NCBI RefSeq assembly: GCF_003712195.1
Contig: NZ_RDSD01000016.1
Location: 46,475 to 110,474, forward strand
Length of the DNA: 64,000 nucleotides
Source of the DNA: Proteiniphilum sp. X52
GTDB lineage: Bacteria; Bacteroidota; Bacteroidia; Bacteroidales; Dysgonomonadaceae
Reading direction: 5' to 3'
How positions within the stretch are numbered: position 1 is the stretch's first letter; each line of letters begins with the position of its first letter. The translations under genes were made by a program, and so were the position numbers. Shown piece by piece: positions 25,562 through 64,000 of the stretch. A model generated the notes under the pieces. It made no database searches, was not told the origin of the DNA, and worked only from the letters and a program-made list of their open reading frames with translations.

Positions 25562-26335
25562 TCACTCAATATTTTTCCTTACGCCGGTCAAAAAAGCTTT
25601 CATTTTTTCGGAGTCTTTCTCTCCGATAATATCGAGCAACTCACGCAGCTTCCTCCTGATATTCTCCAATTGTTCCGATGTATGTGGGTTAAAAAGGATT
25701 TCCGTCAGGAGGTAATCATCCTCCGAGAGTAATCCCTGCGCGATATTCATATGCTTTTTAAAGGTCGTGCCCGGCGCATCCTGATGTTTCATCACGGAGG
25801 CAAACACCAATGTCGAAGCAAAGGGTATAGAGAGCGAGTAGGCAATGGTCTCGTCATGTTCCCGGAACGAATATTCAAACACATTGAGCTTGAGTCGGTG
25901 GTACAAATCCCTGAAAAACACCTTTCCCATATGTGACGACTCCGAAATGATGATAGCGCTCTCTCTACTCAGATCGTTAAGGCTGGCAAAAGTGGGGCCG
26001 AACATGGGATGGGTGGAAACATACGGGCGGGTACGCTCCCTGTAGAACTCCTCCAACCCGGTTTTCACCGAAGCAATATCGCTCAGGATGCATGTCTCCG
26101 GAAGATAAGGCAATACGTTGTGAAATGCCGCGATGGTATATTTGAGCGTGGCAGCATTGATCACCAGTTCCGGGGCAAAATCCTTGACCTCCCGCGCATC
26201 GGTCATCCGCCGCGTGTTATAAATAAAACGCAACTTCCGGGGATCACAATCCAATACAGCCACGTCATGGTCGAAACTAAGCACATCGGCAAAGAACGAT
26301 CCCATCTTGCCGGCTCCCAGGATTAATATTTTCAT
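25562..26335 (-). CDS. Prephenate dehydrogenase (TyrA family)
   Basis: Oxidative decarboxylation of prephenate on the tyrosine branch. The N-terminus has a Rossmann motif, MKILILGAGKMGSFFADVL, followed by VAVLDCDPRKLRF, and the middle has the TyrA-type STHPMFGPT with catalytic histidine context near residue 112. The C-terminal region is helical. At 257 residues it is shorter than bifunctional TyrA and has no chorismate mutase domain; that activity is fused to the DAHP synthase in the next gene. The start at 26335 is chosen from the Rossmann motif; an extension to 26368 reads MTPLKINIFSH. It is the last gene of the aromatic operon. Confidence 0.85.
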   Translation of the reverse strand: MKILILGAGKMGSFFADVLSFDHDVAVLDCDPRKLRFIYNTRRMTDAREVKDFAPELVINAATLKYTIAAFHNVLPYLPETCILSDIASVKTGLEEFYRERTRPYVSTHPMFGPTFASLNDLSRESAIIISESSHMGKVFFRDLYHRLKLNVFEYSFREHDETIAYSLSIPFASTLVFASVMKHQDAPGTTFKKHMNIAQGLLSEDDYLLTEILFNPHTSEQLENIRRKLRELLDIIGEKDSEKMKAFLTGVRKNIE

Positions 26336-26366
26336 ATGACTAAAAATATTTATTTTCAATGGTGTC

Positions 26367-26386
26367 ATATGGAACTCGCTTTAGTC
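26367..26386 (-). repeat. 20-base element upstream of prephenate dehydrogenase
   Basis: Minus strand gactaaagcgagttccatat; the plus-strand continuation to about 26435 (ataatgattatcatgctcgt) resembles the element at 30585-30640 near the POT transporter. It could be a regulatory site or a fragment of a small dispersed repeat. Confidence 0.7.
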
Positions 26387-26551: not shown

Positions 26552-27628
26552 TCATTGAGTCTTTTTCGCTCTCTCCATGATCACCATCTGCTGACGCACC
26601 GATTCCGAGTGAATGGCCTCCAGCACCTGTTTGATGAAATCGCCCGACATCTCCATCCTTTCACCCTGTCCGGCCCGATCTGTCAGTATCTGGTCATACC
26701 GGTGGGTTTGCAGGATAGGCATGTCATGTTCCAGTTTATACTGCCCGATCTCTCTGGACACCCGCATCCGTTTAGCCAGCAGCTGCAACAGCTCATTGTC
26801 CAGTTCATCGATCTGCTCGCGCAAGTCGGAAAGATCTTCCGTAGTCTGCACCGTATCGCGTATAATAAGGTTATCGAGAATATCCTTAAGGGTCGCGGGC
26901 GTGATCTGTTGCGCCTTATCGCTCCATGCCTCGTCAGGCGAACAGTGGGATTCTATGATCAACCCCGAATAATTGAGATCCATCGCCTGTTGACTCAATT
27001 TCGAGATCAGGTTGCGGTCTCCCCCGATGTGACTTGGATCACAGATAATGGGCAATGTGGGAAAACGCCGTTTCAGCTCAATAGGGATATGCCATTGCGG
27101 CAGATTACGATAGATGGTTTTGTCGGGTGTGCTGAATCCGCGGTGGATCACTCCCAATTTCCTTATCCCCGCGTTGTATAACCGTTCCAAAGCGCCGATC
27201 CACAACTCCAGATCGGGATTGACAGGGTTTTTTATCAGTATCGGGATATCTACTCCTTTGAGTGTGTCGGCAATCTCCTGCACCGCAAAAGGATTTGCCG
27301 CAGTCCGAGCCCCGATCCAGAGCATATCGATCCCATATTTCAGGGCTTCATAGACATGCTTTTCAGTAGCCACCTCAGTAGCCATGTACATACCGGTCTC
27401 TTTTTCGGCTTCCATCATCCATTTGAGCGCGGGACTACCTATTCCTTCAAAACCACCGGGTTTGGTCCGGGGCTTCCACACCCCTGCCCTGAATATTTTC
27501 ACTCCGGCATCTGCCAGTTGCCGGGCAGTACTGATCACCTGCTCTTCCGTTTCCGCGCTGCAAGGGCCGGCAATCACAAGCGGTCTCTTGTCATCTATAC
27601 CCGGTAATAAGATTGATTCAAATTCCAT
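26552..27628 (-). CDS. DAHP synthase fused to chorismate mutase
   Basis: A 358-residue bifunctional enzyme. Residues 1-260 are a type I-beta/KDO8P-like 3-deoxy-7-phosphoheptulonate synthase (VIAGPCSAETEEQ, RAGVWKPRTKPGGFEGIG, ICDPSHIGGDRNL), the entry step of the shikimate pathway. Residues about 270-350 are an AroQ-class chorismate mutase (LREQIDELDNELLQLLAKRM and REIGQYKLEHDMP). The order synthase then mutase matches Bacteroides. Fusion lets the mutase report end-product levels to the synthase in related enzymes; whether this happens here is inference. A large composite repeat occupies the 257-base gap upstream. Confidence 0.94.
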   Translation of the reverse strand: MEFESILLPGIDDKRPLVIAGPCSAETEEQVISTARQLADAGVKIFRAGVWKPRTKPGGFEGIGSPALKWMMEAEKETGMYMATEVATEKHVYEALKYGIDMLWIGARTAANPFAVQEIADTLKGVDIPILIKNPVNPDLELWIGALERLYNAGIRKLGVIHRGFSTPDKTIYRNLPQWHIPIELKRRFPTLPIICDPSHIGGDRNLISKLSQQAMDLNYSGLIIESHCSPDEAWSDKAQQITPATLKDILDNLIIRDTVQTTEDLSDLREQIDELDNELLQLLAKRMRVSREIGQYKLEHDMPILQTHRYDQILTDRAGQGERMEMSGDFIKQVLEAIHSESVRQQMVIMERAKKTQ

Positions 27629-27648: not shown

Positions 27649-27890
27649 ATTAGAAATTAGAACTGAGAACTTGGGACTGAGAACTGAGAATTTAGAACTT
27701 GGAACTCAGAACTTAGAACTGAGAACTTGGAACTGAGAACTTGGAACTGAGAACTGAGAACTGAGAACTTGGAACTGAGAAGTGTGAAGTGGATAAGTCC
27801 ATTAATTACATTAGTCTCATTGGCAAATTAGTCTCATTAGTCACATTAGTCACATTAGTCACATTAGTCACATTAGTCACATTAGTCACA
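27649..27890 (-). repeat. Composite repeat copy A (two simple repeats around a core)
   Basis: In minus orientation: (ACTAATGTG)n at 27890-27808, the core attaatggacttatccacttc... at 27807-27779, then (AGTTCTCAGTTC)n at 27778-27649, ending 20 nt before the DAHP synthase start. The first array overlaps the end of the aminotransferase gene: its last Met codon and TGA stop are made of repeat units. No gene lies inside. Confidence 0.9.
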
Positions 27891-29037
27891 TTAACCGGAT
27901 TCTTTGGTACGCTTCCTCCAGTTTTTCCGCCGACGAGCCAAGCGAGATCCGGACAAACCGGTCTCCGTTGTTTCCAAAGATGGCTCCCGGCGTGATAAAT
28001 ACGCGCGCATTGTAGAGCAGGTCATCGACAAATGTTTTGCTATCGGGCGCATCACCGGGAAGTTTACCCCATACGAAAAGGCCTACCTGGCGTTTGTCGT
28101 AACTGCATTGGAACCTATCCATGATCTTCTCCGCCCAGAGGCGCCGTGCCGCGTAGATCTTATTCATTTCGGCATGCCACTCGTCCGGATTCGACAACGC
28201 GGCAATAGCCGCCAACTGCATCGGCTTGAACTGTCCGCTGTCAATGTTGCTTTTTGCCTTGAGCACCCATTTTACAAATTGCGGGTTGGACGCCAACATC
28301 CCCATACGCCAGCCCGACATATTATGCGATTTACTCAATGAGTTCAATTCAATGCAGATACTCTTAGCGCCTGATACTGACAAGATACTCATCGGATTGT
28401 CGTTCAGGATAAAACTGTAAGGATTATCATGACAGATAATGATATTATGTCTTTTACCGAAATCCACTAATCTTTCGAATAACCCTACTGATGCGTTTGC
28501 ACCGGTAGGCATATTGGGATAATTGACCCACATCAGTTTCACATTTGACAGATCCATCTTCTCCAGCGCCTCGAAATCGGGCTCCCAGTTATTGTCCTCC
28601 AGCAGATCGTAGGGTATTACGTTTGCTCGCAATAAATTCGACACCGAGCTGTAGGTGGGGTATCCGGGGTCAGGCACCAGGACACTATCACCAAAATTGA
28701 GAAAAGCCATCGAAATATGCAGTACGCCCTCTTTCGAACCAATCAACGGTAGCACTTCATCCTCTGCCAACTCCACCCGGTAAATCCTCTCATACCATTG
28801 GGCAAATGCTCTCCTGAGTTCCGGAATACCCGTATAAGGCTGATAAGCATGTGTGTCGGGACGTTGTGCGGCTTCACAAAGGGTCCGGATGGTCTCTTCC
28901 GACGGCATCCGGTCGGGAGCTCCCACTCCCAGGTTAATCACATCTTTCCCTTCGGCATTCAGGCGGGCCACTTCCGCCAACTTCACCGAAAAATAATACT
29001 CCGAAATCGATTTAATATGTTCGGCTGGTTCTATCAT
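27886..29037 (-). CDS. PLP-dependent class I/II aminotransferase
   Basis: A 383-residue fold-type I aminotransferase. Substrate-loop and cofactor motifs: VINLGVGAPDRMPS near residue 34, YPNMPTGANAS, the aspartate in IICHDNPYSFI, and the PLP lysine in LNSLSKSHNMSGWRMG near residue 242. Position between prephenate dehydratase and DAHP synthase suggests it transaminates phenylpyruvate and 4-hydroxyphenylpyruvate, although the sequence resembles LL-diaminopimelate or aspartate aminotransferases too. The C-terminal residues LM and the stop codon fall inside the tandem repeat array, so the 3' end of the gene has been shaped by repeat sequence. Confidence 0.85.
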   Translation of the reverse strand: MIEPAEHIKSISEYYFSVKLAEVARLNAEGKDVINLGVGAPDRMPSEETIRTLCEAAQRPDTHAYQPYTGIPELRRAFAQWYERIYRVELAEDEVLPLIGSKEGVLHISMAFLNFGDSVLVPDPGYPTYSSVSNLLRANVIPYDLLEDNNWEPDFEALEKMDLSNVKLMWVNYPNMPTGANASVGLFERLVDFGKRHNIIICHDNPYSFILNDNPMSILSVSGAKSICIELNSLSKSHNMSGWRMGMLASNPQFVKWVLKAKSNIDSGQFKPMQLAAIAALSNPDEWHAEMNKIYAARRLWAEKIMDRFQCSYDKRQVGLFVWGKLPGDAPDSKTFVDDLLYNARVFITPGAIFGNNGDRFVRISLGSSAEKLEEAYQRIRLM

Positions 29038-29182: not shown

Positions 29183-30034
29183 TCATTCTTCACTAAACCC
29201 ATGTTTCTCCTCCCTATATTCTCCCAGAACCTTCAACCCGCTGATCAGCGGCAAGATAGCATCTATCGATTGCCGGTAGCGATTATAATCGGTGAAGGTG
29301 AGATCAATATAGAACTGGTATTCCCATTCTCTTCCGATAATGGGCAGCGACTGGATACGTGTAAGATTGATATTATAGAACGACAATACCGAGAGTACCT
29401 GGGAGAGGCTTCCTTCATTATGAGGCAGCACAAAAACCAGCGACGACTTATTGATATGGTTATCCTTTTGCACCTCCTGTAACATCTCACCCTGCGCCAG
29501 AATAAGGAACCGGGTAAAGTTCCTTTTATTTGTTTCGATTCCGGATGCAACTATTTCCAAGCCATACTTTTCAGCCGCCAACGTGCTGCAGATAGCGGCT
29601 GTCGAGCCCATTTGCCGTTCACGGATATCGCGTGCGGCCAGCGCCGTGTCCTCGTGCTCTACAATCTTCACATCCGGTAAAGTATCGAGAAATGCTTCAC
29701 ATTGCATCAAGGCGATAGGGTGCGACATCACTTCTTTGATCTCTCCCAGAGGCCTGCCGGGAAGCACCACCAATGAATGGGATATACGCAGTTTATGTTC
29801 ACCCGCGATCCGCACATCACTCATTTTCAACAGGTCGTGGTTTTGCAACAAGCTTCCCGCAATGGTATTCTCTATTGCCATCACACCGATCAAATCGGGA
29901 TCTTTTTTCGTTTCCACGAAAATATCGCGAAAAGTGCCGCATGGGACAATTTCCAGTTCTTCACCCTTGAAATATGCGCGGGCCGCGATCTCGTGGAATG
30001 AACCCTCCCCTCCCTGAATGGCTACTCGTTTCAT
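29183..30034 (-). CDS. pheA: Prephenate dehydratase with ACT domain
   Basis: Converts prephenate to phenylpyruvate. The 283-residue protein has the catalytic-domain motifs AIQGGEGSFHEIAARAYF, MAIENTIAGSLLQNHDLL and the NFTRFLIL segment with the conserved TRF, followed by an ACT domain (about residues 200-275, SSLVFVLPHNEGSLSQVL with NINLTRIQSLPIIGREWEY) that normally binds phenylalanine for feedback inhibition. No chorismate mutase domain is attached. It is the first structural gene of a four-gene aromatic operon and stands directly behind the leader peptide and attenuator described separately. Confidence 0.96.
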   Translation of the reverse strand: MKRVAIQGGEGSFHEIAARAYFKGEELEIVPCGTFRDIFVETKKDPDLIGVMAIENTIAGSLLQNHDLLKMSDVRIAGEHKLRISHSLVVLPGRPLGEIKEVMSHPIALMQCEAFLDTLPDVKIVEHEDTALAARDIRERQMGSTAAICSTLAAEKYGLEIVASGIETNKRNFTRFLILAQGEMLQEVQKDNHINKSSLVFVLPHNEGSLSQVLSVLSFYNINLTRIQSLPIIGREWEYQFYIDLTFTDYNRYRQSIDAILPLISGLKVLGEYREEKHGFSEE

Positions 30035-30054: not shown

Positions 30055-30091
30055 AAAAAAAAAAGTCCCATCGTGTAATCGACAGGACTTT
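30055..30091 (-). terminator. Attenuator terminator before pheA
   Basis: Minus strand: AAAGTCC, TG, TCG, loop ATTACA, CGA, TG, GGACTTT, then an unbroken U-tract of seven more T. The stem arms lie at 30091-30085 and 30068-30062. It stands 20 nt before the pheA ATG and after a promoter, so it can only act as a conditional terminator of the leader transcript. Confidence 0.88.
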
Positions 30092-30145
30092 ATTTATTCT
30101 GATATGACTTTTAAATTATTCTCATTCTGCATATAAAATCCTGCC
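30081..30145 (-). promoter_or_regulatory. Antiterminator pairing of the pheA leader
   Basis: RNA segment GGCAGGATTTTAT (30145-30133) can pair over 13 bp, including two G-U pairs, with ATAAAGTCCTGTC (30093-30081). The second segment contains the left arm of the terminator, so the two structures exclude each other. The first segment begins one base after the leader stop codon, where a terminating ribosome would cover it. Confidence 0.8.
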
Positions 30146-30146
30146 T

Positions 30147-30203
30147 TTACCTACTAAAGTAAAAGTAAAACCAGAAACCAAATGCAAAAACGGAACCAAT
30201 CAT
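30147..30203 (-). CDS. pheL: Phenylalanine-rich leader peptide of the pheA operon
   Basis: An 18-codon frame on the minus strand, ATG at 30203 and TAA at 30149-30147, encodes MIGSVFAFGFWFYFYFSR. Six Phe, two Tyr and one Trp make up half of it. It lies 52 bases after a good promoter box and 55 bases before a U-tailed terminator, and precedes prephenate dehydratase. This is the layout of ribosome-mediated attenuation, where scarcity of charged tRNA-Phe stalls the ribosome on the Phe codons. I assign the name by function and context, not by homology to the proteobacterial leader. The peptide itself probably has no further role. Confidence 0.85.
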   Translation of the reverse strand: MIGSVFAFGFWFYFYFSR

Positions 30204-30254
30204 TGTATGTTTCTTTAAGATCGATACGATAAAATATCAGATCGATAATGAATG

Positions 30255-30284
30255 CAAAAGTACTACTTTTTTCTTTTCAACAAA
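30255..30284 (-). promoter_or_regulatory. Promoter of the pheL-pheA operon
   Basis: Minus strand TTTG (30284-30281), an 18-nt spacer, then TACTTTTG (30262-30255). Predicted transcription start about 30249, giving a leader RNA of roughly 215 nt before pheA. Confidence 0.75.
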
Positions 30285-30658: not shown

Positions 30659-32194
30659 ATGTTCAAAAATCATCCTAAAGGGTTGCTCGCCGCCTCACTG
30701 GCGAACATGGGAGAGCGTTTTGGTTTTTATACCATGATGGCTATTCTGGTGCTTTTTTTAATGACGAAGTTCGGCCTTGACGAGAAGAGCGCGGGAGTTA
30801 TCTACTCTATCTTTTATGCCTCCATCTATCTGTTGGCACTGGTAGGGGGTCTTATTGCCGACAAGACCCGGAATTACAAAGGGGTCATCCTGATCGGACT
30901 GCTCCTGATGGCATTGGGATATGTGATCATTGCCATTCCGACCACCACGCCCGTCCCACCGGATAAATTTGTTATTCTGCTGGCTTTAAGCTGTTTCGGA
31001 CTTTTTATCATCGCCTTCGGCAACGGGATGTTCAAAGGGAACCTGCAAGCGCTGGTAGGACAGATGTATGATAATCCGCAGTACAGTAAAATGCGTGACT
31101 CCGGTTTCCAGTTGTTCTACATGTTCATTAACGTGGGTGCCATATTCGCACCTCTCCTCGCAGTCGGTGTAAGAAACTGGTGGGTGGAAAAGCACGGCTA
31201 TGTGTACAACGCCGACCTTCCCGCGCTCGCGCACCAATACCTGGGCAATACCATTACTCCCGAGGGGACGACCCGGTTGCAAACCCTGGCATCGGAAGTG
31301 GGATTTTCCGGTACAGACCTTGCCGCTTTCAGCAGTGGGTATTTGAACGTGTTCACCACCGGATTCCACTATGCCTTCGCGGTGGCTATCGTGGCCATGA
31401 TGATTTCATTGATAATTTATGTTTTCAATAAGAAAGGATTCCCAGATCCGGCTGACAAACGAATCGACCCCAGCGGGAATGCCGCTGTGGCGGAGATGGA
31501 TATCAAAGAGATAAAACAGCGCCTCTATGCCCTGTTTGCGGTATTTGCCGTGGTTATCTTCTTTTGGTTCTCATTCCACCAAAACGGATTGACCCTCACC
31601 TATTTTGCCAAAGACTATACCGACCTGAGCCAGATAAGGGTCAATCTGGGATTTGCCACGTTACAAGGGGCTGAAATATTCCAATCTATCAATCCTTTCT
31701 TTGTGGTATTCCTTACCCCTATTATAGTGGGATTCTTCGGATGGCTCAGGGCTAAAGGAAAAGAACCTTCCACTCCGCGCAAGATAGCCATTGGGATGGG
31801 AATTGCCGCATTCGCCTATGTGATAATGGCGATAGGGTCGCTAGGACTTCCCCTCAAATCGGAAGTGGACGCCATGGGCGGGCTTGCCGATTCGGCGCGT
31901 GTGACGCCCTGGCTGTTGATTGGCACCTATTTTATCCTTACCGTGGCCGAGCTGTTTATCAGCCCATTGGGGATTTCTTTCGTCTCAAAAGTGGCTCCTC
32001 CTAAATACCAGGGAATTATGCAAGGAGCATGGTTAGGCGCCACGGCAATTGGCAACGCGCTGTTATTTATCGGTGCCATCTTCTATACAAGCATTTCGAT
32101 GACAGGCACGTGGTTGGTATTCGTAACAGCATGTATCATCTCGATGTTCACCATGCTGGCGATGATCAAATGGTTAGAAAGGATCGCTAAATAA
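30659..32194 (+). CDS. POT-family proton-coupled peptide transporter
   Basis: A 511-residue major-facilitator protein that imports di- or tripeptides with protons. The N-terminal POT signature is MGERFGFYTMMAILVLFL, with GGLIADKTRNYKGVILIG and the family motif region FYMFINVGAIFAPLLAVGVRNWW. About 12-14 membrane spans are readable, with a middle insertion near residues 170-215 and the C-terminal motif SPLGISFVSKVAPPKYQGIMQG. Length is usual. It stands alone between the divergent aromatic operon and a convergent two-component system, and it is closed by the terminator at 32217-32248. Confidence 0.92.
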   Translation: MFKNHPKGLLAASLANMGERFGFYTMMAILVLFLMTKFGLDEKSAGVIYSIFYASIYLLALVGGLIADKTRNYKGVILIGLLLMALGYVIIAIPTTTPVPPDKFVILLALSCFGLFIIAFGNGMFKGNLQALVGQMYDNPQYSKMRDSGFQLFYMFINVGAIFAPLLAVGVRNWWVEKHGYVYNADLPALAHQYLGNTITPEGTTRLQTLASEVGFSGTDLAAFSSGYLNVFTTGFHYAFAVAIVAMMISLIIYVFNKKGFPDPADKRIDPSGNAAVAEMDIKEIKQRLYALFAVFAVVIFFWFSFHQNGLTLTYFAKDYTDLSQIRVNLGFATLQGAEIFQSINPFFVVFLTPIIVGFFGWLRAKGKEPSTPRKIAIGMGIAAFAYVIMAIGSLGLPLKSEVDAMGGLADSARVTPWLLIGTYFILTVAELFISPLGISFVSKVAPPKYQGIMQGAWLGATAIGNALLFIGAIFYTSISMTGTWLVFVTACIISMFTMLAMIKWLERIAK

Positions 32195-63607: not shown

Positions 63608-63653
63608 ATCGAGTAGGGAGGGGGATTACTCCCCCGCCCTCTCAGTCGAGTAG
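63608..63653 (-). repeat. Hairpin with repeated TACTCGA at the intron 3' end
   Basis: AGGGaGGGGGA (63615-63625, plus strand) pairs with TCCCCCgCCCT (63630-63640). TCGAGTA flanks the hairpin on both sides, at 63609-63615 and 63646-63652. The sequence looks like a second or extended domain VI of the adjacent intron, or a terminator next to its integration site. Confidence 0.6.
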
Positions 63654-64000
63654 ATAAAAGGGATTTCACCTTAAACCTCTCACAGAACCGTGCGTGAAAC
63701 TCTCATTTCACACGGCTCTTCTTGAATTAAAAGATTCAGACCTTCTTCGGTGTTGTACACACTCCGAATACCATGTCTTCTGCTGACTTCTTGCAAAGTG
63801 AAAACAACATCGCTGTTGTTCGTGCACTGTTGGTGCGCCTTGCAAGACCTCCCGGGATAGGGTAGTAGACTTTCTCTGCGTCCTGCTCGATTTACTCATC
63901 CAAGTTACGGTTGATTTTTGGGCGTTCCCGATCCATTGCCCGGTTGCCCCCTCGGATGAGCCTTATATCGAATTTCTGTTCGTCAGTACTTCAGATTTGC
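63645..64000 (-). mobile_element. Group II intron, 3' part, apparently without an ORF
   Basis: Minus-strand RNA features, 5' to 3' from the window edge: a domain I-like stretch (GGGCAACCGGGCAATGGATC), an inverted pair CTTGCAAGG...TTGCAAG (domain III-like), GAAGTCAGCAGAAGACATGG, a short hairpin TTCGG-GTGT/ACAC-CGAA in place of an open frame, domain V at 63719-63684 (AGAGCCGTGTG ... CACGCACGGTTCT with the AGC triad), and domain VI ending CTACTCGAC near 63645. No reverse transcriptase is encoded in this part. The 5' end lies beyond the window. Confidence 0.75.

Follow-up and report, generated by a model that had tools for sequence, protein, structure and literature searches.

A predicted ribosome-mediated attenuator with Phe and Tyr control codons before the pheA operon of Proteiniphilum sp. 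X52 and other Bacteroidia

Known Attenuators of Aromatic Amino Acid Operons

In enterobacteria, pheA is preceded by pheL, which encodes a Phe-rich leader peptide and is followed by mutually exclusive antiterminator and terminator helices, and the same logic is seen in the Bacteroidia element described here. The new element is distinguished from pheL by Tyr codons interleaved with the Phe codons, by an operon that also includes a DAHP synthase-chorismate mutase fusion (DAHPS-CM) and tyrA, and by its occurrence in another phylum. When searched with the Rfam model of pheL (RF01859, Phe_leader), the window, by which is meant the whole 64,000-nucleotide stretch of Proteiniphilum sp. X52 DNA that was analyzed, scores 20.1 bits (E = 0.57), where the cut-off is 55.

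The Bacteroid-trp RNA is a trp attenuator. It was described as a cis-regulatory RNA of Bacteroidetes (RF01692; PMC2864571); it serves a different operon, and its model has no match to the window element, either at the gathering score or up to an E-value of 5. A match to rnk_leader (28.4 vs. 50 bits) was taken to be a terminator look-alike.

The closest precedent is from Bacteroides thetaiotaomicron, where a putative attenuator at the operon pheA>hisHb>aroAIb-aroQ>tyrA was tabulated in 2005 (PMC1173090, Table 7). The order of this operon is identical to that in the window, and the attenuator was predicted from a terminator/antiterminator structure. The word “leader” is absent from the text of that paper, and its passages on the attenuator are without amino-acid specificity, spread or covariation. 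The tabulated entry qualifies a remark in the first-pass annotation of the window, which knew of no description of this exact leader in the phylum. For Flavobacterium psychrophilum, signs of attenuation by leader peptides have been noted at amino-acid operons, and pheA there has a conserved 5′ element that lacks an Rfam match (PMC9723704); the relevant passages do not tie this pheA element to a Phe/Tyr leader. Short ORFs reminiscent of leader peptides have also been reported in B. thetaiotaomicron (PMC7366714). In a search of the open-licence literature, no paper was found to describe a Phe/Tyr leader for Bacteroidota. What appears to be new here is the double Phe/Tyr specificity, the spread and the stacking of the element, while the attenuator anatomy itself is of a known kind.

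The pheA Locus of Proteiniphilum sp. X52

Judging from its sequence and that of its relatives, the region at 30055–30284 on the minus strand of the window is very probably a ribosome-mediated attenuator that would respond when charged tRNA-Phe or tRNA-Tyr runs short and would thereby control the pheA-aminotransferase-DAHPS-CM-tyrA cluster. The genes behind it are found in that order on the same strand: pheA, encoding prephenate dehydratase (29183–30034; PF00800, 181.9 bits), a class I/II aminotransferase (27886–29037; PF00155) whose substrate is presumably aromatic, given its context, the DAHPS-CM fusion (26552–27628; PF00793 and PF01817) and tyrA, encoding prephenate dehydrogenase (25562–26368; PF02153, 30.0 bits against a cut-off of 26.5). 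All four genes reach their Pfam cut-offs, several NCBIfam cut-offs are not reached, and the families are those of Phe and Tyr synthesis. The nearest named record is that of Proteiniphilum acetatigenes, with 95% for pheA. A POT/PTR2 peptide transporter gene (30659–32194, plus strand) is divergent from the attenuator, and pieces of a group II intron are found at the end of the window (63645–64000, minus strand).

The predicted promoter consists of a −33 box, TTTG (30281–30284, minus strand), and a −7 box, TACTTTTG (TAnnTTTG; 30255–30262, minus strand), separated by 18 nt, which we take to match the Bacteroides-type consensus. The boxes and their spacing are as the first-pass annotation had read them from the sequence, and the promoter is a consensus match. 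A simple sigma-70 scan of the element's strand found no promoter.

The leader reading frame, MIGSVFAFGFWFYFYFSR followed by TAA (30147–30203, minus strand), starts with ATG at 30203–30201 and comprises 18 codons up to the stop at 30149–30147, which bears out to the base the aromatic frame proposed earlier. The predicted control codons are Phe-Tyr-Phe-Tyr-Phe (TTT TAC TTT TAC TTT) at 30156–30170 on the minus strand, with an FYFYF run end that is common among the relatives.

Segment 2, GGCAGGATTTTAT (30133–30145, minus strand), begins one base past the leader stop and forms the upstream arm of the antiterminator, pairing 30145-30133 with 30093-30081 in a helix of 13 bp that includes two G-U pairs. 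The downstream arm, segment 3 or ATAAAGTCCTGTC (30081–30093, minus strand), is shared with the intrinsic terminator, a hairpin of segments 3 and 4 (30062–30091, minus strand) with 12 bp and a loop of 6, which was recognized by a terminator scan as well as by folding. Its U-tract (30055–30061, minus strand), seen in the sequence and in the same scan, ends at 30055, 20 nt before the ATG of pheA (30034). The two structures overlap at 30091-30081 and are therefore mutually exclusive. The terminator stem has a folding energy of −15.2 kcal/mol (z = −5.5), and that of the antiterminator stretch alone is close to it at −16.6 kcal/mol (z = −3.8). Between 29900 and 30660, there are three terminator-like sites, including the 12-pair pheA terminator, compared to 0.4 expected. 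Both helices had been described in the first-pass annotation, down to the single base between the stop and the alternative helix, and both also covary among relatives, as described below.

Conservation across Bacteroidia

Upstream regions of pheA were gathered from 217 loci, of which five were too short, leaving 212 that were scored. These came from a named sample (the window together with the 80 best of 131 named relatives), an order sample (67 genomes, the remaining ones with a match among 148 searched), a class sample (32 of the 44 same-class genomes that had a match) and an extra sample of 37 regions of the G221 and G362 families, in part from genomes already sampled; the leader counts leave out 127 same-phylum genomes that had a match. 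A leader was scored if it had at least six aromatics in nine codons, and an antiterminator if its pairing reached −9 kcal/mol or better.

A leader and a terminator are present in 194 of the 212 regions, representing 182 distinct leaders. By sample, this amounts to 78/79 for the named relatives with the window, 57/64 for the order, 27/32 for the class and 32/37 for the extra families. The complete unit of leader, terminator and antiterminator is likewise found in 194/212 regions, against 0/636 dinucleotide shuffles. The attenuator unit occurs before pheA in most of the relatives examined, beyond Proteiniphilum sp. X52. In an accidental negative control, 15 of the regions (L100 and 14 of L112–L141) taken in the wrong orientation yielded no leader.

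The unit is absent from 18 of the 212 regions. Among them are five genomes from the class sample, belonging to families f4 and f9, and six of family f63, where pheA is close behind another gene. The six f63 genomes are L128, L224–L226, L228 and L229; in the sister genomes L227 and L230, a Phe-only attenuator is present. The Phe-rich frame at L117, which is weaker and includes one Tyr, fell below the threshold and was not counted; the pheA gene at this locus has no aromatic neighbor within about 1.2 kb.

Across the relatives, the leader is aromatic in one frame only. The last 12 codons include 9.1 aromatic codons in the leader frame, compared to 3.0 and 3.0 in the other two frames and 4.5 in composition-matched shuffles, and 166 of the 182 distinct leaders exceed all 60 of their own shuffles in aromatic codon content. 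Of 175 distinct leaders, 140 have a TAnnTTTG box no more than 90 nt upstream of their start, where a mononucleotide shuffle predicts 12.3; in the window, the box lies 59 nt upstream of the leader start, which is further than the median of 35 over the leaders. Apart from its Phe/Tyr content, the peptide sequence varies freely, from YYYYFFYF to FFFFFFF. This freedom argues against the idea that the peptide is a small protein with its own function and that the terminator only sets a basal level, as do tails that read through segment 2 in some lineages. Some leader peptides do act in trans (PMC7298713), but for the pheA leader such a role is extremely improbable.

Covariation was assessed on 54 rows selected out of 75 low-redundancy rows, the other 21, which are more distant, being dropped; the alignment includes only leaders with a stop no more than 9 nt past the aromatic run. 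In the terminator, 97.1% of cells are paired, against 40–57% when the arms are slid, and 87 cells are changed on both sides, against 23.3 in shuffles. In the antiterminator, the corresponding values are 85.5% against 37–47% and 71 cells against 30.5. The number of antiterminator pairs that have a double change is not above the shuffles (7 vs. 6.1; 155/500 shuffles), because tolerance of G-U makes double changes easy, and the outer A-U pairs are unpaired in 8 to 19 of the 54 rows. The pairing of each segment 2 with its own segment 3 averages −17.1 kcal/mol, compared to −11.3 kcal/mol with swapped partners, and is better than the swapped average in 180 of the 182 distinct leaders; complementarity between segments 2 and 3 was no criterion when these leaders were picked. 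The sequences of the arms diverge widely among lineages while the pairing is retained. Antiterminator and terminator both covary. The test set beforehand was whether the aromatic-rich frame and the two exclusive helices are kept in relatives, and all are conserved (194/212 regions), with compensatory changes.

An additional 1:2 hairpin is possible between segment 1, CTTTTAC, within the control codons (30159–30165, minus strand) and GTAAAGG, which spans the stop and runs into segment 2 (30144–30150, minus strand). In the 54 sequences, CUUUUAC and GUAARRG form 92.6% standard pairs, with 12 double-change cells against 4.2 in shuffles, and in a few rows TAC/TAT changes together with G/A. However, two of five covariation measures are not above the shuffles (pairs with double changes number 2 vs. 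1.7, and further pair types 7 vs. 7.7), so that the hairpin is no more than possible. Such a hairpin built from the control codons, whose covariation is weak, may add pausing.

Ribosome Position and Proposed Mechanism

Three features of attenuators of the trpL/pheL/hisL type are found at this locus: a leader frame rich in codons for the end products, an intrinsic terminator and an antiterminator that excludes it, with its first arm within reach of a ribosome at the stop. Ribosome-mediated transcription attenuation of the trp/phe type is likely the best reading of the element. When both amino acids are plentiful, a ribosome at the stop codon would cover segment 2, leaving segments 3 and 4 free to pair and terminate transcription. 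If the ribosome stalled at one of the final Phe or Tyr codons, it would sit upstream of segment 2, allowing the 2:3 helix to form and transcription to read through. The alternating Phe and Tyr codons would then act as an OR gate for the two end products of one branched pathway. The interleaving of the codons may be explained by the narrow halt window, since only this window leaves segment 2 bare.

The spacing is consistent with this mechanism. Segment 2 begins a median of 12 nt after the last aromatic codon, counted from that codon's first base (5–95% range, 9–16; 177 leaders). With a ribosome reach of 12 nt (PMC4833913), a ribosome at the stop codon overlaps segment 2 or passes its start in 176 of the 177. 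In 79 of the 182 distinct leaders, the frame continues more than 9 nt beyond the aromatic run, often through segment 2; a frame read through segment 2 would mask it equally well. At seven loci (L034, L044, L061, L063, L069, L076 and L079), the usual stop is lost and the frame runs through segment 2 with the pairing sequence kept. Read-through tails include KVEREFVCI and RVKAGVCM.

The helices alone would suit any switch of terminator and antiterminator, and the translation of the leader is predicted. The element could in principle be riboswitch-like, protein-controlled or a T-box, in which case the short frame would be there by chance. This is very improbable in view of the aromatic content of a single frame, the fixed distance from its end to segment 2 and codons that follow the operon content; the arms also diverge while pairing persists, unlike a conserved ligand pocket. 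Neither the window element nor the loci of 10 relatives match any Rfam family at the gathering score, T-box included, and for the window element a relaxed search gave no T-box match either. Since the element is absent from Rfam 15 at the gathering score, it is a candidate for a new family.

If ribosome-mediated attenuation is correct, a major aromatic amino-acid operon of Bacteroidia would be run by ribosome stalling, and the ribosome would have to travel close behind the RNA polymerase in these bacteria. Loose or absent transcription-translation coupling in Bacteroidota would undercut the mechanism. Bacteroidota largely do without Shine-Dalgarno pairing. The element may also guide the annotation of pheA operons and leader peptides.

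Proposed Specificity for Phe and Tyr

Phe codons are present in every leader counted and outnumber Tyr codons (TTT+TTC, 1010; TAT+TAC, 639). In 171 of the 182 distinct leaders, the final five codons of the aromatic run include both amino acids, and in 93 the run ends in FYFYF. Trp is found in the last eight codons of 40 of the 182 and, not being conserved, was rejected as a third signal.

In six distinct leaders, the 15 codons leading to the end of the run are free of Tyr. Four of these leaders (L113, L153 [identical to L230], L227 and L177) precede a lone pheA, with no aminotransferase, DAHPS-CM or tyrA behind it in a downstream view of 7.4 kb for three and 1.2 kb for L227, and with prephenate dehydrogenase (PDH) on another contig. 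The other two (L070 and L071) precede operons that keep the aminotransferase and DAHPS-CM, in genomes where neither PDH nor Biopterin_H (phenylalanine hydroxylase, PAH) was found. Conversely, 173 of the 176 distinct Tyr-containing leaders precede multi-gene aromatic operons, and the remaining three have too little sequence. Lone-pheA loci are Tyr-free in 4/4 cases and multi-gene loci have Tyr in 173/175 (Fisher p = 3.6e-7, uncorrected for kinship), the two exceptions being the genomes without detected PDH or PAH. On a tree of 94 pheA proteins, there are four changes to the Tyr-free state, all forced by well-supported branches.

Some cases bear on this link less clearly. L040/G376 and L135/G249 keep the Tyr codons although no PDH was found; both are fragmentary and may be incomplete at the level of the contig or the genome. 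The Tyr codons are also kept in G057 and four f2 genomes, which have marginal PDH matches only, together with Biopterin_H matches and with DAHPS-CM and shikimate genes in the operon. In L078/L080, PDH is located elsewhere and DAHPS-CM is within the operon. In the Tyr-free leaders L153/L230 and L227, Tyr codons do occur beyond the run, in the stretch that overlies segment 2.

Since they track the operon content, the Tyr codons appear to serve as a second sensor. The alternative is that tRNA-Phe alone is sensed and that the Tyr codons are passengers, for instance because a TAC-rich RNA is needed for pairing. The excess and constancy of the Phe codons and the partial constraint of the 1:2 pairing on TAC speak for such an arrangement, but it is unlikely, given that Tyr codons are retained class-wide in varied arrangements and are missing from the six distinct leaders whose operons stopped serving Tyr.

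The sensor is consequently read as one for Phe and Tyr, because Tyr codons are near-universal and missing where the operon stopped serving Tyr. The first-pass annotation had the operon controlled by tRNA-Phe charging; the Phe part of this is supported, and control by Phe alone is unlikely. Its suggestion that several aromatic amino acids are sensed survives for Tyr and fails for Trp. If the reading as a Phe and Tyr sensor is true, the alternating FYFYF block would be a simple OR gate of biological origin. With Phe+Tyr and Phe-only leaders both occurring in nature, the relation of control codons to pathway content is open to a direct test.

Predicted Tandem Attenuators and the his Operon

The window has one unit only. 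At 15 of the 212 regions, two complete aromatic leader/antiterminator/terminator units are found in series (L078, L080, L115, L132, L137, L140, L148, L157, L162, L167, L172, L239, L241, L247 and L254), against 0/636 shuffles; three of the second units are weak (−9.2 to −10.9). A TAnnTTTG box is present before the first unit in 12 of the 15 loci and between the units in none of the 15. The tandem attenuators of the Salmonella mgtCBR operon are a precedent: a single leader includes two short ORFs, each proposed to act on stem-loops (PMC3641672). The mgtCBR operon is a Mg2+ operon, whereas both units before pheA are aromatic-rich.

The broader picture, which seems reasonably probable, is that of a class-wide Phe/Tyr OR-gate attenuator whose codons would have been re-tuned with the role of the operon, Tyr having been lost at least four times, and whose stacked units in some lineages would add an AND stage in which readthrough requires two stalls.

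A His-rich short frame is found before hisG in 12/12 of the hisG loci that were fetched (L261–L272; 16 genomes had a match among 21 searched), including that of Proteiniphilum sp. X52 itself (L264), where the frame is MKANLFHHHHFHTCNQAS. This suggests that the his operon may be under the same kind of attenuator.
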